Shown here in pieces: positions 26,136 through 41,022 of a stretch of DNA of 47,245 nucleotides. Both the position numbers and the translations under genes were made by a program. Under the pieces are notes generated by a model. That model did not search any database. It had not been told where the DNA came from and was given only the letters and a program-made list of their open reading frames with translations. Numbering within the stretch: the stretch's first letter is position 1; every line of letters begins with the position of its first letter. Origin of the DNA: Sphingorhabdus sp. EL138 (GTDB lineage: Bacteria; Pseudomonadota; Alphaproteobacteria; Sphingomonadales; Sphingomonadaceae); assembly GCF_945862485.1 (NCBI RefSeq), contig NZ_CAMAYF010000014.1:1-47245 (forward strand), read 5' to 3'.

Positions 26136-26930
26136 TTAAGGCGCAATTCCATTACCTGGCAGCGACGCATTGACGATGCCGCCATCGCAGGCGATGGTTT
26201 CGCCCACAATATAATCGCCAGCGCGCGCCGCGAGGAAGACAGCAAGCCCAGCCATATCCGCCGGCGTTCCGACCCGTGGAAACGGGATATTCTTGCCCAC
26301 CGCTTCTGCATGGTCGCGGGCATCCTTGTTCATGTCCGACTGGAATGCGCCCGGCGCAATGCTCGAAACCAAGATATTGTCTTTGACGAGCTCAGCGGCC
26401 AGGCGGCGCGTCAATTGGATGACCGCGGCTTTCGAGGCCTGATAGCTATAGGTTTGCCACGGGTTGATGCGCAGGCCATCGATCGATGCAATGTTAATGA
26501 CCTTACCGGGACGATCAAAGGTTGCGGCCGCCTTCAACTGCGGGTGCAAAGCTTGCGTCAAAAAGAACAAAGATTTGACGTTCAGATCCATCACACGGTC
26601 CCAACCGCTTTCGGGAAACTGACCAAATTCCGCACCCCATGCGGCCCCGGCATTATTCACCAGAATGTCCAACTTTTCCTCACGCGCCGCAATTTGTTCG
26701 GCAAGCGACAGGCAGCCGTCCACAGTCGACAAGTCGCAAGGCAGACCGATGACCTGATTGCCGAATTCAGCGACGGTTTCCTCAATCTGGTCGATCTTAC
26801 GCGCGCTGATATACACGCGTGCTGCGCCAGCCTTGAGATAGCCTTCGACGATCATCTTGCCGATGCCGCGCGATCCACCGGTGACCAACGCCACGCGGCC
26901 ATTGAGGTTGAATAAGGTTTGAATGTCCAT
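26136..26930 (-). CDS. SDR family oxidoreductase, RhlG/3-oxoacyl reductase-like
   Basis: 264-aa short-chain dehydrogenase. The NAD(P) loop is GGSRGIG, the structural NNAG motif is present, a catalytic Ser lies in NIASIDG, and the YxxxK is SYQASKAAV. The N-terminus MDIQTLFNLNGRVALVTGG and the VYISARK segment after beta-2 resemble RhlG-type NADPH-dependent reductases. It is 13 nt downstream of the acyl-CoA dehydrogenase gene at 26944 and so is the third gene of the left arm. The substrate is unknown; a beta-hydroxyacyl or keto intermediate is likely. Confidence 0.9.
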   Translation of the reverse strand: MDIQTLFNLNGRVALVTGGSRGIGKMIVEGYLKAGAARVYISARKIDQIEETVAEFGNQVIGLPCDLSTVDGCLSLAEQIAAREEKLDILVNNAGAAWGAEFGQFPESGWDRVMDLNVKSLFFLTQALHPQLKAAATFDRPGKVINIASIDGLRINPWQTYSYQASKAAVIQLTRRLAAELVKDNILVSSIAPGAFQSDMNKDARDHAEAVGKNIPFPRVGTPADMAGLAVFLAARAGDYIVGETIACDGGIVNASLPGNGIAP

Positions 26931-26943
26931 TTGCGGTTTCCTT

Positions 26944-28080
26944 TTAATAACCGTTCATCGTCGCCACGCGGTCTGCGTGGTAATAAGCATCGCCGAAAAA
27001 CTCGTTCAAGCTGCGGTCGCGCTTCATATACAGGCCGATGTCATATTCATCGGTCATGCCAATACCGCCATGCATTTGCACGCCTTCCCGCACCGAAAGA
27101 TTGCAGGCAAGTCCAGCTTTCGCCTTGGCCGCAGCGACATAAAGTTCGGCTTTTGCATGGCCTTCGTCCATTAAGGATTGCGCCTTCAGCACAATCGAAC
27201 GCGCGCCTTCCATTTCACCATAAAGATGCGCAGCGCGGTGTTGAAGCGCCTGAAATTCGCCAATGACGCGGTCGAATTGCTTGCGCGTCTTGAGATATTC
27301 AAAAGTCATGTCCATCGCGCCCGTGCCAACACCGACCATTTCGGCGGCAGCGCCCACGCGTCCGGCGTCGAGCATCTTGGACAACACCGCCCAGCCGCCA
27401 TCGACTTCGCCAATCACGGCGTCGGCATCCACCTGAACACCGTCCAAATTCACATGTGCAGCGACTGCAGAATCGACAAGCCGCGCCGCCTCCATCGATA
27501 GGCCCGCCGCGTCCTTGTCCACCGCGAACAAGGTCAGGCCATCGGTTTCGCCAGCGGCGCCAGCGGTACGCGCCGCGACAATGAGCATGTCCGATGATGC
27601 GCCTTGCACAACAAATTGCTTTTGGCCTGTCAGCTTAAAGCCATTGCCGCTGCGTTCCGCAACGCAGGCGATTTTCTCGGGCCGGTGCTTGACGCCTTCT
27701 TCGATCGCGATGCCGATCACGGTTTCGCCCGCCAAGATGCCGGGGAACCAGCGGTCACGCATCGCCTTGTCCGCCAGCTTCAACGCCTCAACGGCCGCCA
27801 CTGCTGTGGTCAGGAAAGGGGATGGCGACAAGTTACGGCCAATTTCTTCCAGCACGATTCCCGCCTCAATCTGCCCCATGCCCATGCCGCCATCGGCCTC
27901 GGGAATCAGAATTCCGGTGAAGCCCAATTCGGCGAATTGCTTCCACAAGCCATGGCTGAAACCGTCCTTGCACCCCATGTCACGAAATTTGCGGAAATGG
28001 GTGACGGGCGCTTCGCTCGCCATGAAATCGCGCGCGGTGTCACGTAGCATATTTTGGTCATCGGTTAAGGTCATTGCCAT
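26944..28080 (-). CDS. Acyl-CoA dehydrogenase, probable beta (non-catalytic-type) subunit
   Basis: 378-aa FAD-dependent acyl-CoA dehydrogenase fold (N-terminal helical domain, beta-barrel around KLTGQKQFVVQGASSD, C-terminal four-helix bundle ending AMQMHGGIGMTDEYD-like). The C-terminal segment reads YMKRDRSLNEFFGDAYYHADRVA and lacks the EGTSE-type Glu motif. That resembles the beta subunits of split alpha2beta2 enzymes such as the FadE26-FadE27 and FadE28-FadE29 pairs of steroid side-chain breakdown. Its partner is the gene at 28191. A repeat of two hairpins lies between them. Confidence 0.9.
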   Translation of the reverse strand: MAMTLTDDQNMLRDTARDFMASEAPVTHFRKFRDMGCKDGFSHGLWKQFAELGFTGILIPEADGGMGMGQIEAGIVLEEIGRNLSPSPFLTTAVAAVEALKLADKAMRDRWFPGILAGETVIGIAIEEGVKHRPEKIACVAERSGNGFKLTGQKQFVVQGASSDMLIVAARTAGAAGETDGLTLFAVDKDAAGLSMEAARLVDSAVAAHVNLDGVQVDADAVIGEVDGGWAVLSKMLDAGRVGAAAEMVGVGTGAMDMTFEYLKTRKQFDRVIGEFQALQHRAAHLYGEMEGARSIVLKAQSLMDEGHAKAELYVAAAKAKAGLACNLSVREGVQMHGGIGMTDEYDIGLYMKRDRSLNEFFGDAYYHADRVATMNGY

Positions 28081-28100
28081 GTTAAATACCCTTATTCATA

Positions 28101-28188
28101 TCCTCGCCCCAGCGCAGGCTGGGGCCTATGTCGTCTCTCGGTCACGACTAAAATGCGTGATGGGCTCCAGCCTCAGCCGGAGCGACGA
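28101..28188. repeat. Paired-hairpin intergenic repeat, second type
   Basis: CCCCAGC-gcag-GCTGGGG (28107-28124) and GCTCC...GGAGC (28164-28183) form two GC-rich hairpins about 40 nt apart. They fill the spacer between the two acyl-CoA dehydrogenase genes. The sequence is unrelated to the CTGAA-type pairs at 10.5 and 37.3 kb but has the same layout. Confidence 0.65.
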
Positions 28189-28190
28189 TA

Positions 28191-29351
28191 TCAACCGCCC
28201 GGCATCTCAAGAATGCGCTTCGACACGACGTTCAGCATCACTTCGCTGGTCCCGCCCTCAATCGAGTTCGCCTTAGTCCGCAGCCAATTGCGTGCCTTTG
28301 ACCCGCCATTGGTGCGTTCGCTTTCCCACTCAAGCGCTTGGCTGCCGCCGATCGACATGACCAGTTCATTGCGTTTTTTGTTCAATTCGGTCCCGACATA
28401 TTTCATCAGGTTGGAATAAGCGGGGTGCGCCTTACCCGTTTTCCATTCGTCCATGAAACGTTCGCCATGGGCGCGGAAGGTCAGGTTATCGACATCGAAC
28501 AACGCCATTTGCGCGCGCAGCACCGGTTCTTCGGCCAAGGTCGCCTTCATCGCCGCGCCAATCGAGGTGACGCCGCCATCCCCGCCCATGCCGGAGATCA
28601 TCTCGCGCTCATGACCAAGCAGATATTTCGCCACATCCCAGCCACGATTGATTTCGCCAACAACTTGATCCTTCGGCACGACCACATTGTCGAAAAATGT
28701 TTCGCAGAAGGGCGAGTTGCCCGAAATCAGCTTAATTGGTTTTGTGGAGACACCGGGCGTTTCCATGTCGAACAACAGGAAGCTGATGCCGTGATATTTG
28801 TTCGCCTTGTCTGTGCGGACCAAGCAGAAAATCCAGTCGGCCTTGTCAGCGTAAGACGTCCAGATTTTCTGGCCGTTGACGACCCAATGGTCACCTTTGT
28901 CTTCGCCAAAGGTCTGCATCGACACAAGGTCGCTGCCTGAGCCTGGCTCGGAGTATCCCTGACACCAGCGGATTTCGCCCCGCGCGATCTGGCCCATATA
29001 ATGTACTTTTTGTTCTTCAGTGCCAAATTTCAGCAGGGCCGGGCCAAGCATCCAGATGCCGAAACTGTTGAGCGGCGAGCGGCAGCCAAGCTTTGCCATT
29101 TCCTGACGCAGTATTTTTGTTTCCTGCGGGGAAAGACCAGCGCCGCCATACGCCTTGGGCCAATCAGGCACGGTGTAGCCCTTTGCGACGCAGCGTTCTA
29201 GCCAGACCTTCTGCGCTTCGGATTGAAAAACAAAATTGCGTCCGCCCCAGCAGACGTCTTCGTCACCTTTGGCCGGTATGCGCATTTCGGCGGGGCAGTT
29301 TTCCTCCAGCCAAGTGCGCGCCTCGGCGCGGAATGTTTCAAGGTCGGACAT
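28191..29351 (-). CDS. Acyl-CoA dehydrogenase, probable alpha subunit
   Basis: 386-aa acyl-CoA dehydrogenase. It has the FAD/substrate motif CQGYSEPGSGSDL, WVVNGQKIWTSYADKADW in the barrel, and the C-terminal SIEGGTSEVMLNVVSKRIL that carries the conserved Glu. The long first helix region and AYGGAGLSPQE match proteins that pair with a smaller partner. The start at 29351 follows CAGGAGAG; an earlier in-frame start lacks support. It is first in the left arm and is divergent from the MFS gene. Confidence 0.92.
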   Translation of the reverse strand: MSDLETFRAEARTWLEENCPAEMRIPAKGDEDVCWGGRNFVFQSEAQKVWLERCVAKGYTVPDWPKAYGGAGLSPQETKILRQEMAKLGCRSPLNSFGIWMLGPALLKFGTEEQKVHYMGQIARGEIRWCQGYSEPGSGSDLVSMQTFGEDKGDHWVVNGQKIWTSYADKADWIFCLVRTDKANKYHGISFLLFDMETPGVSTKPIKLISGNSPFCETFFDNVVVPKDQVVGEINRGWDVAKYLLGHEREMISGMGGDGGVTSIGAAMKATLAEEPVLRAQMALFDVDNLTFRAHGERFMDEWKTGKAHPAYSNLMKYVGTELNKKRNELVMSIGGSQALEWESERTNGGSKARNWLRTKANSIEGGTSEVMLNVVSKRILEMPGG

Positions 29352-29511
29352 GACGCTCTCCTGTTTAATTGCTTGATGAATTTTTGGGCGGTCACGCACC
29401 GAAACGCAAGTCTTTATCGGTGAGCGATGCATGCCGTAACGTCATTTGCATCCCGATTGACAGGCTGGGTAGCGCGCCTAGCATAAGGGTGGGATATAGG
29501 AGAGAAACATC

Positions 29512-29556
29512 GTGCGATTCGCCGGAAAACACGCCTTTTCGCATTTTGTGATTTAA
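29512..29556 (+). CDS. Possible 14-codon leader peptide ahead of the MFS gene
   Basis: GTG at 29512 opens MRFAGKHAFSHFVI and stops at TAA 29554-29556. A good ribosome site (TATAGGAGAGA) lies 5-8 nt before it, whereas the MFS ATG 6 nt after the stop has none. The frame is the same as the MFS gene, so the stop codon is the only thing separating them. It may couple translation, or mark a former longer start. Confidence 0.35.
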   Translation: MRFAGKHAFSHFVI

Positions 29557-29562
29557 CCCGAT

Positions 29563-30978
29563 ATGGCACCCGTCGTCGCGCTTCCCCGATCGTTAAAAGT
29601 CATGCACGGCCTTGGCTCGGTTGCCTATGGCGTAAAGGACAATGGCTTTTCCGTATTTCTGCTGATTTTTTATAATCAGGTGCTTGGGATTGATGCGGGA
29701 ATCGTTGGCACCGTCATCATGGCCGCGCTGATATTCGATGCCTTTGCCGACCCGATTATTGGCGAATTGTCCGACCGCACACAAAGCAAATGGGGCAGGC
29801 GCCTGCCATGGCTATACGCCGCCGCCATTCCACTTGGCATTATCTGGCTGCTGCTGTGGCATCCGCCCGCAATGGGCCAGACAGGCACAATCATCTGGCT
29901 GTTCTGCACAGCGGTCTTGGCGCGCACCTTGGTAGCGATGTGTGAAGTGCCGTCCATCGCTCTCGTGCCCGAGCTGACCGGCGATTATGACGAACGCACG
30001 CGGTTGATGCGCTATCGTTTCCTGTTTGGCTGGGCGGGTGGATTGCTCATGCTGATCTTTGCCTATGGCATTTTCTTCACGGGCGAAAAGGGCGTGAGCG
30101 ACCCTGCGGGGTATGATTCCTATTCTGTGTGGGGCGCGCTGATGATGAGCGGCGCAGTACTCATCTCCGCGCTTGGGCAACATCGGCACATCGCTAAGCC
30201 ATCCCCCCCTGCCCCGCGTGGTGCTGGCCTTGGTCATGCTTTTGCTGAAGTTAAAGCGACGCTCTCCAATCGTGCGTTTCTGTGGCTCGTCTCCGCGGCT
30301 TTATTCGGGCTCATCAACCAAGGGATGACCTTTGCGCTCACCAATTACCAGCTCGCCTTTCTTTGGCAGCTGCAACAGATGGAAATGCTCTATTATGCGT
30401 TAACTCTATTTTCGACGGTCATCATTGCTTTCATCATTGTTCCCCCTGTCTCGGCGCGATTGGGCAAGAAGCGCGCTGCGATCCTATTCGCGATTATCTC
30501 GCTGACCTTCACGGCGGCATTATACGGTAGCTGGCTGCTCGACCTTGTGCCCGGGGCGCCAGCGGACCCTTCAATCCTGTTCATGTTTGGCTTAATGACC
30601 ATCGCCAATAGCGCGGCGGTGAGTATGATGATGCTGACATCCTCGATGATGGCCGATGTGGTGGAGGCATCGCAGCAGGAAACCGGTAGGCGTTCGGAAG
30701 GGCTATTCTTTGCGGGCTATTTCTTCATGCAGAAATGTGCCGTTGGCATCGGCACCTTTGCCGCCGGTATGATCCTGAGCTTTGCCCGTTTTCCACAAGA
30801 TGCCGCGCCCGGCGAAGTCGATGTCGCCGTCCTCGATGGGCTGGCGCTTTATTATATGGGCACGGTGGTAGTCATTGGCATTATCGGTATTCTGATCCTG
30901 CGCCATTTCCCGATTTCGCGCGAAAGTCACAATGAACGCTTGCGCGCCTTGAACACGATGACAGAGTCTGCCAGTTAA
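29563..30978 (+). CDS. MFS transporter, GPH (glycoside-pentoside-hexuronide:cation) type
   Basis: 471-aa permease with 12 predicted helices. The N-terminus [28 protein letters not shown] and the loop [32 protein letters not shown] are signatures of the GPH/MelB branch. In sphingomonads many GPH members sit in catabolic clusters for non-sugar substrates, so a sugar should not be assumed. It opens the right arm and probably imports the cluster substrate. Confidence 0.9.
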
Positions 30979-31010
30979 CCAGTCAATTAAATTTGAAAGA
31001 GGAATGTGTC

Positions 31011-32294
31011 ATGGATTTCGATCTCAACGATAAGCAAACATATTGGCGGGACCGTATCCGCGACCATAATGAACGCTTCTTGCGTCCACGCGTTGCCGAT
31101 TATTATGCCGAGCAGGCAGTAGGCGACCGATGGAAAGTGCTGCAAGTCGTTGAAGAGGAAAAGGCACGGGCCAAGGCTGCAGGCCTTTGGAATCTCTTCA
31201 TGCCGCCAACGTCGGGCCGCGTGCATGTCGATGACAGCGTGCATTTTGATGGCCCGGGCCTCACCAACATGGAATATGCCCTGTGCGCCGAAGAAATGGG
31301 CCGCATCGGCTTTGCATCCGAAGTCTATAATTGTTCGGCACCGGACACGGGCAATATGGAAGTGTTCCTGCGCTATGGCACGGCGGAACAAAAAGAAAAA
31401 TGGATGATCCCGTTAATGAACGGCGAAATCCGTTCAGCATTTTTGATGACGGAGCCCGCGGTTGCGTCATCTGATGCCACCAACATCGAAACCTCGATTC
31501 GTCGTGAAGGCGATGAATATGTCCTCAACGGCGTGAAATGGTGGTCATCCGGTGCAGGCGACCCGCGCTGCAAAATCGCGATTGTCATGGGCAAGACCGA
31601 TTTTGAAGCCAAGCGCCATGCGCAGCAATCGATGGTGCTGATGGAGCTGGATTCCCCCGGCGTGAAAATTCTGCGCCATCTGCCGGTCTTTGGTTATGAC
31701 GACGCGCCGCATGGTCATATGGAAATCGCATTGAAGGATGTCCGTATTCCAGCATCGAACATGTTGCTGGGCGAGGGTCGCGGGTTCGAGATCGCGCAAG
31801 GCCGCCTTGGACCAGGCCGCATCCACCATTGCATGCGCACCATCGGTGTTGCCGAAGAAGCACTGGAGAAAATGTGCAAGCGCCTGCAATCGCGCGTCGC
31901 CTTTGGCAAGACCGTTGCCGAGCATAGCGTCTGGGAAGAGCGCATTGCCCGTGCCCGTATCGACATTGAAATGACCCGTCTGCTCTGCCTGAAGGCAGCA
32001 GATATGATGGACAAGGTCGGTAACAAGGCGGCGGCGGCGGAAATCGCGATGATCAAGGTGCAGGCACCTAATATGGCCTTGAGCATCATCGACAATGCTA
32101 TCCAAGCCCATGGCGGCGGCGGCGTGTCCGACGATTTCGGTCTCGCCTCGGCTTGGGCGCATCAGCGCACCTTGCGTCTGGCCGATGGCCCCGACGAAGT
32201 GCACGCCCGCGCCATCGCACGCATGGAATTGGGCAAGCATGGCGGCCGTGGCAAAGACGGCATGTCCAGCGGCGATATGGGGGCAACACGGTGA
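31011..32294 (+). CDS. ACAD10/11-like acyl-CoA dehydrogenase
   Basis: 427-aa acyl-CoA dehydrogenase. It differs from the left-arm pair: it carries [35 protein letters not shown], and the C-terminal [27 protein letters not shown], which closely recall the dehydrogenase domain of animal ACAD10 and ACAD11. In those, the domain removes phosphate from a 4-phosphoacyl-CoA to give an enoyl-CoA. The start 31011 follows AAAGAGGA. It overlaps the next gene by GTGA, and the matching kinase is two genes on. Confidence 0.93.
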
Positions 32295-33379
32295 AGGCTG
32301 CCGTCCTGATTGAAGCGGGCAAACCGCTTCAGATTGAGCAAATCCATATCGCCAATCCCGGGCCGCATGAGGTGCTGATCCGCACTGCGGCCTGCGGATT
32401 GTGCCATAGCGACTTGCACTTTATCGAAGGCACCTATCCGCACCCCCTTCCCGCGATCCCCGGGCATGAGGCGGCAGGTATTGTCGAAGCCGTGGGCAGT
32501 GAAGTGCGCACGGTGAAGGTGGGCGATGCCGTTGTCACCTGCCTCAGCGCTTTTTGTGGCCATTGCGAATATTGCGTCACTGGGCGCATGTCCTTGTGCC
32601 TTGGCGGCGACACACGGCGCAAAGCAGGTGAGGCTCCGCGTCTCACGCGGCCCGATGGTAGCATCGTCAATCAGATGCTCAACCTATCGGCTTATGCCGA
32701 AATGATGTTGGTGCACGAACATGCCTGCGTCGCGATCCATCCGGATATGCCATTGCCACAAGCGTCCGTTATCGGCTGCGCGGTGACCACGGGTGCAGGC
32801 ACAATTTTCAACGCATGCAAAGTAACGCCCGGTGAAACCGTTGCCGTTATCGGCTGCGGCGGTGTTGGCCTTGCCACGATCAATGCGGCCAAAATTGCTG
32901 GCGCTGGCCGCATCATTGCTGCTGATCCAATGCCGGAAAAGCGGGCGCTTGCAATGAAGCTGGGTGCGACGGATGTTATCGATCCAATGGATGCTGATGC
33001 AGCCAAGCAAATTCAGGAATTGACAAAAGGCGGTGTCGATCATGCGATTGAGGCTGTAGGTCGTCCCGCGTCGGGCGAGCTTGCTGTCAAGTCGCTGAAG
33101 CGCGGCGGGACAGCCACAATCCTTGGTATGATGCCTTTACAGCATTCGGTTGGCCTATCTGCGATGGACCTGTTGTCGGGTAAGAAATTGCAAGGCGCGA
33201 TCATGGGTGGCAACCGCTTCCCTGTGGATATTCCGCGTCTTGTGGATTTTTATATGCGTGGCCTTTTGGACCTCGACACCATCATTTCGGAGACCATTCC
33301 GCTGGAGCGGATTAACGAGGGCTTTGAACAAATGAAGCGCGGCGATTCGGCGCGTTCGGTCATCGTTTTTGATCAATGA
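32291..33379 (+). CDS. Zinc-dependent alcohol dehydrogenase (medium-chain)
   Basis: 362-aa MDR enzyme. The catalytic zinc ligand is in [13 protein letters not shown], with [12 protein letters not shown] next; the structural zinc site is [15 protein letters not shown] (four Cys); the Rossmann fold is [20 protein letters not shown] followed by AADP. It is related to class III-type alcohol dehydrogenases. The GTG start overlaps the preceding TGA stop, and its own stop overlaps the next ATG (ATGA), so three genes are translationally coupled. It probably oxidises a hydroxyl group of the pathway substrate. Confidence 0.93.
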
Positions 33380-34458
33380 GCGCAGCCCCCACCCCGATTG
33401 ACGCGCAAAGGGCCTTTACCGGCACCGTTGCGCCGACCGGAACCGACATCCTCGACGCCGAAAAATTGGCGGCATGGATGTCGGATAACGTCACAGGCTT
33501 CGAAGGCCCGGTCGAGGTTCTGAAATTCGCCGGTGGGCAGTCAAACCCGACCTATCGGTTGAACGCCAAAAGCGGTTCCTACGTCCTGCGCCGTAAGCCG
33601 TTTGGCGTGCTATTGCCTAGCGCGCACGCGGTTGACCGTGAGTATAAAGTCATTGCTAGCCTATATCCCACGGGTTTCCCGGTAGCCAAGCCCTTTGGCC
33701 TGTGCACCGACGACAATGTCGCGGGTTCCATGTTCTACATCATGGACATGGTTGAGGGTCGCACTATTTGGGACGGCGCCATGCCCGGGTCAAACCCGCC
33801 TGAGCGCCGCGCCACTTATGAGGCGATGATTGATACCCTCGCGGCATTACATAATGTCGATGTCGAAGGTGCTGGCTTGTCCGACTTTGGCAAACCCGGC
33901 AATTATTTCGGGCGGCAGGTGGAACGCTGGACGAAGCAATATCAGCTCGCCGAAACCGAGACGATGCCCGAAATGGAGCGGCTGATCGAATGGTTGCCGA
34001 AGACTTTGCCCGAGCAAACACGGACTAGCGTCGTGCATGGTGATTATCGCATCGACAACATGATCTTCGATGCCAAAGAGGCAAAGGTCGTCGCGGTGTT
34101 GGATTGGGAATTGTCCACCTTGGGCGACCCGCTGGCCGATTTCACTTATGTCGCAATGGCATGGGTGACACAAAATGAAGGCCGGTCGGGCGTTATGGAT
34201 TTAGACCGCGCCGCTTTGGGTATTCCCGAACTCGATGCGATGGTGGAACGTTATTGTGCTGCCACAGGTCGCGACGGCGTGCCCGACATGAACTGGTATT
34301 TTGCCTATAATTTCTTCCGCCTCGCGGGGATTATTCAGGGCATTAAAAAACGCGTCATCGACGGCACCGCAAGTTCGTCCCATGCGCAAGCCATGGCCGA
34401 GCGCGTTTTCCCGTTGGCGGAATCGGCATGGAAGTTTGCCGAGAAGGCCGGGGCGTAA
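33376..34458 (+). CDS. APH-fold phosphotransferase, ACAD10/11 kinase-like
   Basis: 360-aa aminoglycoside-phosphotransferase-fold kinase. The catalytic loop VHGDYRIDNMIF (about residue 220) and the metal motif AVLDWELSTLGDPLADF (about 243) match the kinase domain fused to ACAD10 and ACAD11 in animals. FAGGQSNPTYRL serves as the nucleotide-binding start. Known members phosphorylate the 4-hydroxyl of 4-hydroxyacyl-CoA, as does LvaA of Pseudomonas putida. With the dehydrogenase at 31011 it forms a split version of the same pair. An antibiotic-resistance role is unlikely given the context. Confidence 0.93.
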   Translation: MSAAPTPIDAQRAFTGTVAPTGTDILDAEKLAAWMSDNVTGFEGPVEVLKFAGGQSNPTYRLNAKSGSYVLRRKPFGVLLPSAHAVDREYKVIASLYPTGFPVAKPFGLCTDDNVAGSMFYIMDMVEGRTIWDGAMPGSNPPERRATYEAMIDTLAALHNVDVEGAGLSDFGKPGNYFGRQVERWTKQYQLAETETMPEMERLIEWLPKTLPEQTRTSVVHGDYRIDNMIFDAKEAKVVAVLDWELSTLGDPLADFTYVAMAWVTQNEGRSGVMDLDRAALGIPELDAMVERYCAATGRDGVPDMNWYFAYNFFRLAGIIQGIKKRVIDGTASSSHAQAMAERVFPLAESAWKFAEKAGA

Positions 34459-34481
34459 GTTAGCTTAAATGGGGGAGTGCG

Positions 34482-35264
34482 ATGTCGTTATTTGACATGA
34501 GAGGGCAGGTCGCGGTTATCACCGGATCATCGCGCGGCATCGGCAAGGCAATCGCCGAAGAAATGGCCGAGCAGGGCGCGAAGGTGGTCATATCCAGCCG
34601 CAAGCTTGATGTGTGCGATGAAGTTGCCGCAGCGCTTAATGCGAAATATGGGGAAGGCACAGCAGTCGCTATGGCCGCCAATATTTCGTCCAAGGAAAGT
34701 CTGCAGGCTTTGGTTGATGGCAGTCGCAAGGCATTTGGTAAAATTACTGCTTTGGTCTGCAATGCGGCCTCAAACCCTTATTACGGTCCGATGGCGGACA
34801 TTGGCGATGATGCGTTCAGCAAGATCCTGACCAACAATATCGTCGCCAACAACTGGCTCATTTCGATGGTTGTGCCAGAGATGATCGAACGCGGCGAAGG
34901 GTCAGTTACGATTATATCTTCAATCGGCGGCCTGAAAGGATCGTCAGTCATTGGCGCTTATTGCATTTCCAAAGCAGTGGACATGCAGCTGGCACGCAAT
35001 CTGGCGGACGAATATGGACCAAAAGGTGTGCGTGTGAACTGCATCGCGCCAGGGTTGATCAAGACCGATTTTGCAAAAGCACTGTGGGACAACCCGGAAA
35101 CATTGAAACGCTCGACATCGACCGCATCGCTAAAGCGTATTGGTCAGCCCCACGAAATTGCAGGCGCAGCAGTATTTCTAGCTTCTCAGGCTGGCGGGTT
35201 TATGACGGGGCAGACAATGGTAATTGACGGCGGCGTAACAAGCGGCGGCGGAGGAGTGGGTTAA
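34482..35264 (+). CDS. SDR family oxidoreductase
   Basis: 260-aa short-chain dehydrogenase with [18 protein letters not shown] in place of NNAG, catalytic IISSIGG and YCISKAVDM. The start ([16 protein letters not shown]) has GGGGGAG upstream. The next gene begins in its stop codon (TAATG). The [10 protein letters not shown] segment is typical of a subgroup next to acyl-CoA dehydrogenases. The substrate is not readable; a keto/hydroxy interconversion as for LvaD is plausible. Confidence 0.9.
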
Positions 35265-36058
35265 TGAGCGCATTAACAGGCAAAGTAGCGATCATCACCG
35301 GCGCTGGCTCAGGCATTGGCCGTGCATCCGCCATCCGCTTTGCGGCCGAGGGTGCCAAGGTCGTTTTGGGCGACATGGCCGCTTCCGTCCATGACACCGC
35401 CGCGATGATCGGTGATGCGGCTACCGCCGTGCAAATGGACGCAGGCGATGAGGCTGATGTCGCGGCTTTGGTCGCCAAGGCCATCACGCTACATGGCCAT
35501 CTCGACATCGCTTTTGCCAATGCGGGCATTTCCGGCGGCATGGAGGGGATTTTCGACAACACCGTGGAAAATTTCACCAGCGTCCTGCGCGTCAACCTCA
35601 TCGGCCCATGGCTGATGGTGAAACATGCCGGCAAGGTCATGGCCGATGCAGGCAAGGGCGGTTCGATCATCCTGACGGCAAGCGTTGCTGGCATCCGTTC
35701 AGGGGCCGGCGGTCCGCCTTATTCGGCGTCAAAGGCGGGCGTCATCAATCTGGCGCAGGTCAGCGCGCAGCAATTGTCGGGCACGAATGTCCGGTGCAAC
35801 GCGATTTGCCCGGGCCTGACCGAAACTGGCATGACCAAGCCGACTTTCGATTATGCCCGCGAAAAGGGCGTGACAGAAAAAATCGGTCGCCTGAATCCCT
35901 TGCGCCGCGGCGCACAGCCGGAGGAACTGGCGAATGTCGCCTTGTTCCTCGCCAGCGACCAAGCCTCTTATGTCAACGGCCAAGCCATTGCCGTTGACGG
36001 CGGGCTGTCGAGCTCGCACCCGGTAACGCGTCAGCTAACAGGACAAACCGCAGTATGA
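35264..36058 (+). CDS. SDR family oxidoreductase
   Basis: 264-aa short-chain dehydrogenase with [30 protein letters not shown] and [11 protein letters not shown]. The acidic GDMAAS after beta-2 favours NAD over NADP. It starts within the previous stop and ends in ATGA overlap with the hydrolase gene, so it is the fifth coupled gene of the right arm. With the other SDR and the zinc ADH, the operon encodes three separate alcohol/ketone oxidoreductases. Confidence 0.9.
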
Positions 36059-37245
36059 GTGCCAAAGACCTAGGTTTCGTTCCCGACCGCCTCGCGCGGA
36101 TACCCGCATTTATTCAGGCCAATTATCTCGACAATGGCAAATTGCCCTTTGCGTCGGTGCTCGTTGGGCGTGGCGACGATATCGCGTTGCAATGGAGCTC
36201 GGGCGTTGCCGAAGATGCTATCTTCCGTATCGCGTCAATGACCAAGCCGATCACTTCAGTCGCGTTCATGCAGTTGGTGGAACAGGGCAAGGTCGCGCTG
36301 ACCGATCCGGTCGCCAAATATATTCCTGAATTTGCGAAATTGGGTGTGTTTGTGGGCGGCGGCGGCAATGTGCCGTTTATGACGCGCGCACCATCCACCC
36401 AAATGCGGGTGGTTGACTTGTTGCGGCATACAGCCGGATTCACCTATAGCTTTCAGGAACAAGGCAATATCGATGCGGCCTATCGCAAGACCGATGTTGA
36501 AAGCTGGACCAAAAATACATCGCAAAGCGTGATTAATACACTCGCGCAAATCCCGCTGGAATTCGACCCGGGCACGCAGTGGAATTATTCAGTTGCCACT
36601 GACATAGTCGGCATATTGGTAGAACGGATTAGCGGACTATCCCTGCCCGAATATTTCCAGACACATATTTTTGCACCCATGGGCATGATCGATACATTTT
36701 TCCACGTGCCCGCCGACAAGGCAGCACGAATCCCCGAAGGCTTTGGCTTTGACCCCGAAGCGAAAATGAAACTGCTCGACAAGGCCGGAGCCGACAGCAT
36801 GTGGGCAAAGGGCTGGTCATTTAACTCCGGCGGTGGCGGCCTTGCGTCGAGCGTTGCGGACTATCATCGTTTCTGCCGGATGCTGCTGAACGGCGGCGCG
36901 CTTGATGGGGCACAAATCCTCAGCCCCAAGACGATAGAATTGATGACCGCCAACCATATTCCAGGCGGCCAAGACCTGACGCAAATGTCGAAATCTTTGT
37001 TCAGCGAGGCCGAAATGGCCGGCATTGGCTTTGGCCTTGGCTTTGCCACGACGATCGACAGCGCCGCGACACTTGCGCCTTGCTCCAACGGCGATTTTTA
37101 TTGGGGCGGCATGTATTCCACCGCCTTTTTCGTCGATCCAGTTGAGGACATCATCATGATTTTCATGACGCAATTGCTGCCGTCAACCACCTACCCCGTG
37201 CGCCGCGAGATCAAGACGATGATTTATTCCGCGCTGGCGGCGTAG
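36055..37245 (+). CDS. Serine hydrolase, class C beta-lactamase fold (EstB-like)
   Basis: 396-aa serine hydrolase. The nucleophile motif SMTK sits at residues 61-64 (FRIASMTKP), the Tyr of YxN-type WNYSVATDI at about 178, and the third motif is the WGG of [10 protein letters not shown], as in EstB esterases rather than the KTG of true AmpC. There is no signal peptide, so it is cytoplasmic. As last gene of the right arm it may hydrolyse an ester or lactone to release a hydroxy acid. Antibiotic hydrolysis is improbable. Confidence 0.9.
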
Positions 37246-37269
37246 ACTAACGGTTCTGCACATAAACCA

Positions 37270-37360
37270 CGTCATGCTGAACTTGGTTCAGCATCCATCG
37301 TGCCACGCGAGCCGAAGGGTCTAGAGGTAAAATGGACCCTGAAACAAGTTCAGGGTGACG
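37270..37360. repeat. Paired-hairpin intergenic repeat, copy 2 (inverted relative to copy 1)
   Basis: ATGCTGAA/TTCAGCAT (37274-37294) is followed by CCCTGAA/TTCAGGG (37337-37355). The order of the two hairpin types is the reverse of that at 10478-10568, so this is the same element turned over. It lies between two convergent transcripts and may serve at both 3' ends. Confidence 0.8.
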
Positions 37361-37401
37361 CAGCCATGGGTTAGCAAAAAAGCTTTCGGCACACCCCCGC
37401 T

Positions 37402-38304
37402 CTAAACCGTCGCAATCTCCACCTGCTTGACGGGCTCCGGCTTTGCTCGTGCCGCAATCAGGCTTCCGGCTACGATCAATGCCGTGCCCAAAAGCACAGG
37501 CCATGTCACTGGTTCGGCAAAAAACAACCAGCCGAAAAATGCAGCCCAGACAAAGCCGGTATATTCGACCGGAATCAAAATCTGTGCTTCCGCGCGGGCA
37601 TAGGCCCAGCTCAGGAACAATAACGATATAATCGCCAAGGCAGCCGCGCCGCCAATCATCGGGGCATCGGTCAGGCCGATGGGCTGCAAAAACCATGGCG
37701 CGACAAGGCCAAGCGTTGCCGCCACAAACAGATTCTGGAAAAAGGCGATTTCAATGGGCCCAGCAACCTGCGCCTGCCGCCGTGCCAAAATCAGATTATA
37801 CGCAAACACCACGGCCGAAAATAACACCGCCGCAGCGCCCCAGAGATGCCCGCTGGTATAATGTCCGCTCAACCGGCCAGCCATGATGATGGCGACCCCA
37901 CCAAGCCCCGCCAGCGACGCCCAGATGGCCGGACGGCCGATCGTTTCCCCCAGCATAACGGCGGCGAGATATAGCGCGATAACAGGTGCGATGAAACTCA
38001 GCCCAATGGCCTCGGCCAGTGGCAATTGCGTCAACGACCAGAAAAAGCTGACCGCCATGATCGACACGATTATGCTGCGCCATATATGCATTTTAAGGAT
38101 ATTGACTGGCGGCCATTTCTGCCGCGTTCCGACAAACAATAGCGCCATGAATAATGTGCCCAAGCAATTGCGCCACATCACCGCGTTATAGGCCCCAAGC
38201 GATAAAGCGATGTCTTTCATCATCGCATCCATCAGGGAAAATGTAGCAATGCCTGCCGCCGCCATCATGAACGGGATGAACGGACGCGGATGCAGTTCAG
38301 CCAT
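37402..38304 (-). CDS. EamA/DMT family transporter
   Basis: 300-aa inner-membrane protein with ten helices in two EamA repeats (RNCLGTLFMALLF and AFFGWLFFAEPVTWPVLLGTALIVAGSLIAARAKPEP). It belongs to the drug/metabolite transporter superfamily; the RhaT-like group often exports amino acids or metabolites. The substrate is unknown. It follows the GNAT gene by 2 nt in a three-gene minus-strand unit with ispG. Confidence 0.9.
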   Translation of the reverse strand: MAELHPRPFIPFMMAAAGIATFSLMDAMMKDIALSLGAYNAVMWRNCLGTLFMALLFVGTRQKWPPVNILKMHIWRSIIVSIMAVSFFWSLTQLPLAEAIGLSFIAPVIALYLAAVMLGETIGRPAIWASLAGLGGVAIIMAGRLSGHYTSGHLWGAAAVLFSAVVFAYNLILARRQAQVAGPIEIAFFQNLFVAATLGLVAPWFLQPIGLTDAPMIGGAAALAIISLLFLSWAYARAEAQILIPVEYTGFVWAAFFGWLFFAEPVTWPVLLGTALIVAGSLIAARAKPEPVKQVEIATV

Positions 38305-40004: not shown

Positions 40005-40928
40005 TCAGTCCAGACCGCCGAACCACGCCAGCGCTTGCGCTGCGGCGATACTCCCTACCTCGGCTAGCACAGCCTGATCGGCGTCGCGGGTCTGTTCATA
40101 TTTTCCGTCCGCTTCATAAAAGGCCGTCACAATGACCGGAGGCCGCGCGGATGGCCAGAAAATGGCAACATCATTAATCTTGTTGTTGAAATATGCGCTG
40201 TTGGCGGTTCCGGTTTTATCGCCACTTTTCCAAGAGGCGGGGATGCCGCCTCGAATCCGCTTCATGCCGGTAGCGGTATCGACCATCCATTGGATCAACA
40301 AATCACGCGACGCCGGTTTCAATAAACGGTCTCCGGTCAAAAGCGCTGCCATCGTCCGCGCAAATGCGCGCGGCGTGGTCGTATCGCGAACCTCACCGGG
40401 CGGGACATTGTTCAAATCCGGCTCGTACCGGTCAAGGCGCGTGACGTCATCGCCCCAACTACGGAAAATGGCGGTAATGGCGGCTGGTCCGCCCAGATGT
40501 TTAATCAAAAGATTGGCCGCCACATTATCGCTGGTCTTTTGCGTAGCTTCGGCCAAATCGATGATGCGCATCGCACCTTTTGCCAAATTCGGCCCTGTGA
40601 TGGGGGCATGCGCAACCATATCCGCTTGCGAATAAGGCAACGCCGCATCAAGTTTCAGCCTGCCTTGATCCGCCTGTTGCAGAACAGCTGCGGCGAGCGC
40701 GAGCTTGAAGGTGGAACACATGGCAAAGGCTTCATCATAATGATGCCCCGTCATACGCCCCGATGCCGTGTCGAGCACCAACGCCCCTAGCCGCCCAGCA
40801 ACGCGCGCCTCCAGTGCCGCCAACGCAGCATTGGCGGAAACGGACGGGATCACTTGCCGCGGCCCAGCGCAGCCTGCGATCGTCAACGCCGCAGCACCTG
40901 CCATGAGCCCGCGTCTATCAATATCCAT
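40005..40928 (-). CDS. bla: Class A beta-lactamase, probable Tat-exported lipoprotein
   Basis: 307-aa class A serine beta-lactamase with every catalytic motif: STFK (Ser72, Lys75), SDN (133-135), the omega-loop ExxLN (Glu169 to Asn173) and KTG (238-240). The N-terminus MDIDRRGLMAGAAALTIAGC has a twin-arginine followed by a lipobox ending in Cys20, so it may be Tat-exported and lipidated. GGGAGGCGGG precedes the ATG at 40928. It is a chromosomal-looking gene with no mobile element nearby. Spectrum cannot be read. Confidence 0.93.
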   Translation of the reverse strand: MDIDRRGLMAGAAALTIAGCAGPRQVIPSVSANAALAALEARVAGRLGALVLDTASGRMTGHHYDEAFAMCSTFKLALAAAVLQQADQGRLKLDAALPYSQADMVAHAPITGPNLAKGAMRIIDLAEATQKTSDNVAANLLIKHLGGPAAITAIFRSWGDDVTRLDRYEPDLNNVPPGEVRDTTTPRAFARTMAALLTGDRLLKPASRDLLIQWMVDTATGMKRIRGGIPASWKSGDKTGTANSAYFNNKINDVAIFWPSARPPVIVTAFYEADGKYEQTRDADQAVLAEVGSIAAAQALAWFGGLD

Positions 40929-41022
40929 CGCCCGCCTCCCAATGTTTTCGCTAGTGGCACCAAATCGCAATGCATGCGCCTACCGCTTTGATTTACGCAT
41001 GGATACAAACTAAGACGCACTT

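Follow-up and report, generated by a model that had tools for sequence, protein, structure and literature searches.

A ten-gene cluster in DNA from Sphingorhabdus sp. EL138 includes an acyl-CoA dehydrogenase and an APH-fold kinase which, judged by similarity, mapped residues and phylogeny, are the counterparts of the two halves of ACAD10 and ACAD11. The stretch analyzed (47,245 nt of contig NZ_CAMAYF010000014.1, hereafter the window) comes from a 2.18-Mb draft genome of 55 contigs with a completeness of 96.6%. We regard the cluster, with good though not full confidence, as a catabolic island in which the kinase would form a 4-phosphoacyl-CoA, the dehydrogenase would convert this to a 2-enoyl-CoA and beta-oxidation would follow, with the neighbouring genes in partner roles. 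The cluster probably breaks down a 4-hydroxy acid. The chemistry is known and well supported, and it occurs here in a conserved and apparently undescribed setting. The features are listed below; SDR denotes a short-chain dehydrogenase/reductase.

31011..32294, plus strand: acyl-CoA dehydrogenase of the ACAD10/ACAD11/LvaC type, 427 aa, predicted from its mouse ACAD11 match, residues and tree to eliminate phosphate from 4-phosphoacyl-CoA.
33376..34458, plus strand: APH-fold kinase of the ACAD10/11/LvaA type, 360 aa, predicted 4-hydroxyacyl-CoA kinase (identity, residues, tree).
32291..33379, plus strand: zinc-dependent medium-chain alcohol dehydrogenase, 362 aa with an inferred GTG start (PF08240/PF00107 in the longer open reading frame; best PDB match 1hdy, alcohol dehydrogenase, E 2.2e-77; cysteine motif CGHCEYC..C).
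29563..30978, plus strand: MFS_2 transporter, predicted first gene of the operon (PF13347, E 4.7e-108; 157.6 bits to the GPH symporter model, under its cut-off of 231.35).
29457..29484, plus strand: candidate sigma-70-like promoter before the transporter, TTGACA-16-TAGCAT, a consensus match only.
34482..35264, plus strand: SDR oxidoreductase 1, accessory, YCISK motif (PF13561, E 3.9e-56; passes NCBIfam PRK07231 'glucose 1-dehydrogenase' with 237.7 bits against a cut-off of 215).
35264..36058, plus strand: SDR oxidoreductase 2, accessory, YSASK motif (PF13561, E 1.6e-56; PRK07231, 214.8 bits against the cut-off of 215).
36055..37245, plus strand: PF00144 serine hydrolase, esterase-like, accessory, SMTK motif (best PDB match 7pp3 'Esterase', E 3.6e-107).
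28191..29351, minus strand: acyl-CoA dehydrogenase large subunit, start inferred in a reading frame that opens at 29432 (best PDB matches are to Tcur3483: 6wy9, E 6.5e-41, and 6wy8_B, E 7.7e-41, searched as 28191-29363).
26944..28080, minus strand: acyl-CoA dehydrogenase small subunit, predicted to pair with the large one (best PDB match 6wy8_A, Tcur3481, E 6.1e-40).
26136..26930, minus strand: SDR oxidoreductase 3 of the divergent operon, YQASK motif (PF00106, E 7e-48).

The window dehydrogenase shares 58.7% identity with mouse ACAD11 over 366 aligned residues. Its best PDB match is 8v3u (E 3.5e-131), and four ACAD11-type chains head its structural matches, the next structure being far weaker (E 8e-38). 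The kinase is 41.6% identical to the kinase domain of mouse ACAD11 over 320 residues (E 1.4e-76) and 51.0% identical over 345 residues (E 4.4e-115) to PDB 3dxp, whose organism we take to be Cupriavidus. Its closest named relatives among the matches listed are in Sphingorhabdus genomes, at 93-97% identity. In mouse ACAD11, R626, H634 and R637 hold the 4-phosphate, D753 is catalytic, R631 is a general acyl-CoA dehydrogenase residue and D220 and N225 belong to the kinase site (PMC12440821, in part). The window dehydrogenase has H236, R265, R270, H273, R276 and D392 at the positions of mouse H597, R626, R631, H634, R637 and D753, and the window kinase has R180, D223 and N228 at those of R176, which contacts CoA, D220 and N225. 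The published CoA-contacting R86 could not be mapped, because at the offset that fits D220/N225 the mouse chain itself has Phe at position 86. A first-pass annotation of the window, made from the letters alone, had recognized signatures of both ACAD10/ACAD11 domains, and its motifs fall at functional sites: VHGDYRIDN holds D220/N225, ADGPDEVH holds D753 and a further 14-residue motif holds R626, H634 and R637. That recognition is upheld by the identities and mapped residues, and by the trees and co-occurrence given below.

Conservation of these residues was counted in the best tblastn segment per locus, segments with stops or low coverage being dropped. R626, R631, H634, R637 and D753 are kept in all 153 dehydrogenase segments and H597 in 152 of them, while R176, D220 and N225 are kept in 196/196 kinase segments; these counts take in the window's own loci and many rows that are close relatives, or one gene in two loci. 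As a control, both subunits of the divergent acyl-CoA dehydrogenase lack the phosphate-binding residue set. Among seven other acyl-CoA dehydrogenases of the genome (L004-L010; L numbers denote loci and G numbers genomes), L006-L010 have only R631, with H597 as well in L008, and L005 has R626, R631 and D753. The remaining one, L004, is taken up below.

Phylogenetic trees were built without rows for LvaA, LvaC or ACAD10, so the window pair is not placed against those proteins. In the kinase tree (64 rows from chosen loci, near-copies omitted), the window row lies among sphingomonad kinases and is joined next by 3dxp (support 96/98), all within a set of 55 rows (99/98) to which mouse ACAD11 also belongs and which stands apart from an 8-row group with 9o56 (100/98). 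The exact places of the mouse and 9o56 rows are unsure because both sit on long branches. The dehydrogenase tree (55 rows) has a 48-row clade (100/99) that contains the window protein, mouse ACAD11 and 4hr3 and excludes the seven other acyl-CoA dehydrogenases of the genome; of these seven, L004 and L005 branch closest to the clade, on long branches. Grouping with unrelated acyl-CoA dehydrogenases and APH kinases, the outcome named beforehand as counting against the assignment, did not occur in these trees.

Both proteins were then searched in 249 sampled Pseudomonadota genomes, by their handles one draw for both, with at most 7-8 candidates scored per genome and presence set at E <= 1e-115 for the dehydrogenase and E <= 1e-40 for the kinase. 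The dehydrogenase was found in 86 genomes and the kinase in 89; 86 have both, 3 the kinase only and 160 neither. Every genome with the dehydrogenase therefore also has the kinase (86/86; Fisher p 4e-64, uncorrected for shared ancestry). In a sample from the taxonomic order, the kinase was present at E <= 1e-60 in 59 of 118 genomes. Pfam labels the kinase simply 'APH' and gives the dehydrogenase a generic label, as would fit an antibiotic phosphotransferase and a conventional fatty acyl-CoA dehydrogenase that are neighbours by chance, but the co-occurrence, the residues and the trees make that explanation extremely improbable. An antibiotic-resistance kinase was rejected on its score to the APH(3') model (35.4 bits against a cut-off of 205), on scores under the cut-off for five other NCBIfam APH families and on the linkage; a conventional fatty acyl-CoA dehydrogenase was rejected because of the residues and the position in the tree.

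Relatives of the window dehydrogenase with 70-71% identity are also found on Sphingobium and Sphingomonas plasmids (TomMM15, MM-1, MI1205, TKS and indicum B90A). Some of these strains are presumably lindane degraders.

The positions first assigned to the dehydrogenase, kinase, zinc alcohol dehydrogenase, two SDRs and serine hydrolase agree with the list of open reading frames and with Pfam and NCBIfam. The pair had been called split, and the two are indeed separate genes, with the alcohol dehydrogenase gene between them rather than one polypeptide as in ACAD10 and ACAD11; this is no oddity, since separate genes are a known bacterial state. The description of an operon with stop-start overlaps holds at the dehydrogenase/alcohol dehydrogenase, alcohol dehydrogenase/kinase and SDR2/hydrolase junctions (4 nt each) and at SDR1/SDR2 (1 nt), but a 23-nt gap precedes SDR1. 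The start of the alcohol dehydrogenase is corrected here: GTG at 32291 is most likely, overlapping the dehydrogenase stop. The operon begins upstream of the 31011..37245 range originally drawn, with the MFS_2 gene on the same strand 32 nt before the dehydrogenase, and this is its largest intergenic gap. That range missed both the transporter and the divergent two-subunit acyl-CoA dehydrogenase, the latter being more conserved with the pair than are the SDRs and hydrolase. The divergent genes at 26136-29351 are part of the conserved unit, and the range is to be widened to 26136-37245. A promoter and terminator scan of 29000-37500 was close to chance (8 promoters against a shuffle mean of 5.2; 8 terminators against 10.8). 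Further along the window, a beta-lactamase-like protein (PF13354, E 1e-44) is encoded at 40005-40970 on the minus strand.

The kinase has at least 582 relatives, of which the best 80 loci were analyzed. Neighbours were counted as hits of >= 40% identity in the window's orientation, for the 62 of 80 loci with >= 8 kb upstream of the kinase and the 72 of 80 with >= 4 kb downstream; the loci share ancestry, some being near-copies, so that the counts are not independent of each other. On the upstream side (n = 62), the ACAD11-type gene and both the large and small subunits are present in all 62 loci, the alcohol dehydrogenase in 61 and the MFS_2 gene and the divergent SDR in 57 each. On the downstream side (n = 72), SDR1 is found in 53 loci and SDR2 and the hydrolase in 56 each. 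The gene order that was to be sought in other sphingomonads exists, the pair, the alcohol dehydrogenase and the two-subunit dehydrogenase being kept in 61-62 of 62 loci. Likewise, the alcohol dehydrogenase adjoins the kinase in 24 of the 29 kinase loci from the search of the taxonomic order (L011-L039, 1.5-kb flanks). The genes 3' of the kinase in Novosphingobium and Tsuneonella loci are subtilases, M16 peptidases, members of other families or of none.

Rearranged versions that keep the partners occur in more divergent members of the family. In L219 the kinase and alcohol dehydrogenase lie with the two-subunit dehydrogenase, divergent to the MFS_2 gene, the ACAD11-type gene and an SDR, and in L214-L217 and L230 two-subunit dehydrogenase genes are located past the end of the operon at which the kinase lies. 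Four genomes at greater distance (L189, L196, L199 and L201) also have two-subunit dehydrogenase genes in the neighbourhood of the pair. Since the 60 regions compared were hand-chosen from hits, they show what occurs and not how often. SDR1 itself varies among close relatives: it is 91-98% identical to that of the window in L042, L051 and L054 and 67-69% identical in L041, L043, L048 and L052, while identity in all seven loci is 90-99% for the alcohol dehydrogenase, kinase and SDR2. From these identities, it looks like SDR1 has been replaced inside the operon in some close relatives.

The two divergent subunits best match two different chains of 6wy8, the large one Tcur3483 and the small one Tcur3481; adjacent genes that match the two subunits of a heteromeric structure are what is expected of a heterotetrameric acyl-CoA dehydrogenase. 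We take Tcur3481/Tcur3483 to act on steroid CoA esters. This raises the idea that the substrate is a bulky steroid- or terpenoid-derived acid, whose side chain would be desaturated by the two-subunit enzyme while the kinase and ACAD11-type enzyme remove a 4-hydroxyl that blocks the next round. The presence of both subunits in 62/62 loci, and of two-subunit dehydrogenase genes near the pair in the four distant genomes, agrees with this. Similarity to the structural relatives is only moderate, however (E about 1e-40), and no oxygenase is recognized by Pfam in the ten genes of 26136-37245. In addition, one subunit of L189 is 61% identical to that of the window, but both subunits of L196, L199 and L201 are only 32-36% identical and may for that reason belong to other families. 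We consider a steroid- or terpenoid-derived substrate possible but rather doubtful. No link was made to the bile-salt genes of Caenibius tardaugens, because the words 'kinase' and 'phosphotransferase' are absent from the main text, the part of the source considered, of PMC12882949.

The serine hydrolase had been proposed to open a lactone or ester as the first step, with the oxidoreductases adjusting the hydroxyl and the kinase and dehydrogenase feeding beta-oxidation. Its start overlaps the stop of SDR2, it is present in 56/72 loci, its best structure is named an esterase, and a gene of the SMP-30/gluconolactonase family lies beside another pair, in L189. On the other hand, the hydrolase and SDR2 are jointly missing from 16 of the 72 loci and SDR1 from 19, while the core remains; a copy elsewhere is possible. 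The hydrolase structures viewed, 60 of 106 matched, are esterases, carboxylesterases, beta-lactamase-type proteins and other hydrolases, and none is called a lactonase. The absence of the SDRs and hydrolase from 16-19 of 72 loci makes lactone opening unlikely as a core step, and a first step driven by the hydrolase is not supported.

The other part of that proposal, that the kinase and dehydrogenase feed beta-oxidation, fared better. Pfam was run on open reading frames picked by hand in other genomes, from the surroundings of the pair or of the two-subunit dehydrogenase. AMP-binding CoA ligases were found in L178, L186 and L202, and hydratase/3-hydroxyacyl-CoA dehydrogenase genes in L083, L224, L199 and L196; L079, L201 and L214 show only the 3-hydroxyacyl-CoA dehydrogenase part in the frames read. 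A thiolase is present in L201 and TesB-type thioesterases in L214, L215 and L216. Regulators include TetR (L199, L214, L215) and IclR (L196, L201) proteins, and a histidine phosphatase (L189) and SurE (L178, L186) were also identified; the remaining hand-picked frames belong to unrelated families or to none. The ligase, hydratase/dehydrogenase and thiolase genes near the pair elsewhere support entry into beta-oxidation. The Sphingorhabdus genome has 18 stretches matching the L202 CoA ligase (best 55%), some of them pieces of one gene, so a ligase encoded outside the cluster can supply the activity. In P. putida, growth on levulinate persists in an lvaE mutant (PMC6692424, in part).

Levulinate (4-oxopentanoate) or another short 4-oxo acid might also be the substrate, in a pathway set apart from lva solely by its gene content. 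The two key enzyme types are the same, and the SDRs or the alcohol dehydrogenase could fill the LvaD role. Yet the locus has no ligase or regulator family match, the transporter is of the MFS_2 type and not ActP-like, and a second acyl-CoA dehydrogenase is not obviously required for a C5 acid. Furthermore, with no gap over 32 nt, the operon has no room for an LvaB gene. We are inclined to doubt a short 4-oxo acid, while seeing it as a possible substrate.

For the catabolic island with a 4-hydroxy acid as its substrate, we propose the following route through the two divergent operons. In the right-hand operon, the MFS_2 protein may import the substrate or a precursor, and a ligase encoded elsewhere would activate the acid to its CoA ester. 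The APH-fold kinase would use ATP to phosphorylate the 4-hydroxyl of the acyl-CoA, and the ACAD11-type flavoenzyme would take off the 4-phosphate to give the 2-enoyl-CoA. Both steps have been shown for orthologues, in which phosphate elimination needs a redox-active FAD and no added electron acceptor, and the ACAD10 kinase prefers the R form (PMC11342911 and PMC12440821, both in part); Burkholderia proteins can replace the ACAD10 domains in vitro (PMC11342911, in part). The zinc alcohol dehydrogenase, plus the SDRs where present, could move the substrate between its 4-oxo and 4-hydroxy states, to produce the hydroxy form or else to adjust its stereochemistry to what the kinase accepts. The divergent two-subunit enzyme would work as an ordinary acyl-CoA dehydrogenase on this same chain, which is probably bulky or branched, before or after the phosphate step. 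General beta-oxidation enzymes would complete the breakdown, and the serine hydrolase, if involved, may optionally free the acid or alcohol from an ester. As a tentative extension, the heteromeric dehydrogenase and the phosphate-eliminating pair might work one after the other on a single bulky 4-hydroxy acid of natural origin, in what would be an undescribed pathway; the alcohol dehydrogenase and SDRs would convert an unusable stereoisomer, via the 4-ketone, to the one that the kinase takes.

Several observations weigh against this route or loosen it. The kinase and dehydrogenase lie in separate regions in six genomes, G170, G174, G258, G336, G318 and G053 (locus pairs L182/L183, L184/L185, L194/L195, L203/L204, L205/L206 and L225/L226), and the least similar kinases from the search of the taxonomic order, L035-L039 (52-57%), have no alcohol dehydrogenase or ACAD11-type match within their 1.5-kb flanks. 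None of the ten genes of 26136-37245 has a Pfam match to a CoA ligase, thiolase, hydratase or regulator family, and the next gene, at 37402-38304, likewise has no ligase or regulator match. The roles suggested for the alcohol dehydrogenase, SDRs, transporter and two-subunit dehydrogenase are drawn from gene order and family, the trees omit the LvaA, LvaC and ACAD10 sequences, and a literature search found no reports of activity, expression or substrate for the cluster. Finally, L004 has all six ACAD11 positions at 34% identity to the window dehydrogenase, and searching the draft genome with PF01636 turned up no APH gene on the contig of L004; the dehydrogenase residues alone therefore do not prove pairing with a kinase.

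The L004 gene (L232:8780-10003, minus strand, contig C4 of this genome, G000) has ACAD11 as its best PDB match (E 1.3e-50). Near it are a MaoC-like gene, identified by Pfam, and aldehyde dehydrogenase and Rieske-type genes recognized by eye only. It is possibly a second kind of acyl-CoA dehydrogenase that eliminates a leaving group. A second APH-fold kinase, 28% identical, is encoded on contig C12 (L237, 3314-11240, minus strand) in a same-strand run with a flavin monooxygenase-like gene (FMO-like and pyridine-nucleotide oxidoreductase hits), a CoA ligase, a putative cyclase and an acetyl-CoA hydrolase/transferase-like gene. This run may represent another acyl-CoA kinase pathway.

The pair itself is not new, since separate bacterial pairs have been published, namely LvaA/LvaC and the Burkholderia orthologues tested in vitro. 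The function of ACAD10 and ACAD11 was reported in 2024-2025 (PMC11342911 and PMC12440821, both in part), and in the open-licence literature searched we found such a pair described for just one bacterial pathway, that of the Pseudomonas lva genes. In the same literature we found no description of the sphingomonad cluster, with its zinc alcohol dehydrogenase between the pair and its conserved two-subunit dehydrogenase, and the cluster around the pair may be undescribed. As a second conserved setting, it could be used to test which 4-hydroxy acids bacteria encounter in nature, and its gene partners may lead to steps not yet known, stereochemical inversion for example. There is a consequence for annotation as well: some proteins related to the kinase, for example in Sphingobium, are labelled aminoglycoside phosphotransferases and are more likely acyl-CoA kinases.

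Compared with mammalian ACAD11 and ACAD10 (PMC12440821 and PMC11342911, both in part), the window proteins have the same two domain types and the same mapped catalytic and phosphate-binding residues, but they are encoded by two genes of a bacterial operon, dehydrogenase first and alcohol dehydrogenase between, with no HAD domain match in the kinase gene. Like the lva operon, the locus has separate kinase and dehydrogenase genes, an SDR in the operon and an expected 4-phosphoacyl-CoA intermediate. As had been noted at the outset, the gene sets differ, and by its gene content the locus is not an lva operon: no counterpart of LvaB, LvaE, LvaR or LvaF/G was seen in the locus, which adds the MFS_2 transporter, the zinc alcohol dehydrogenase, the hydrolase and the divergent two-subunit dehydrogenase. 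LvaA is only 29% identical to the ACAD10/11 kinases, while related bacterial kinases reach 51% and 38% (PMC11342911, in part). A search for the lva order (kinase, small gene, dehydrogenase) in the 60 hand-chosen regions found none; in L175, L187 and L188 the kinase is just upstream of the dehydrogenase, with a gap of < 100 nt. The LvaA/LvaC orthologues of Burkholderia pseudomallei, also separate kinase and dehydrogenase genes, are closer to ACAD10 than are those of P. putida (PMC11342911, in part), and the 3dxp protein is a further bacterial kinase, sharing 51% identity with that of the window. The divergent subunits resemble the heteromeric acyl-CoA dehydrogenases Tcur3481/Tcur3483 (6wy8) and 4x28, but at moderate similarity, and in the window they are encoded alongside the pair of the phospho-pathway.

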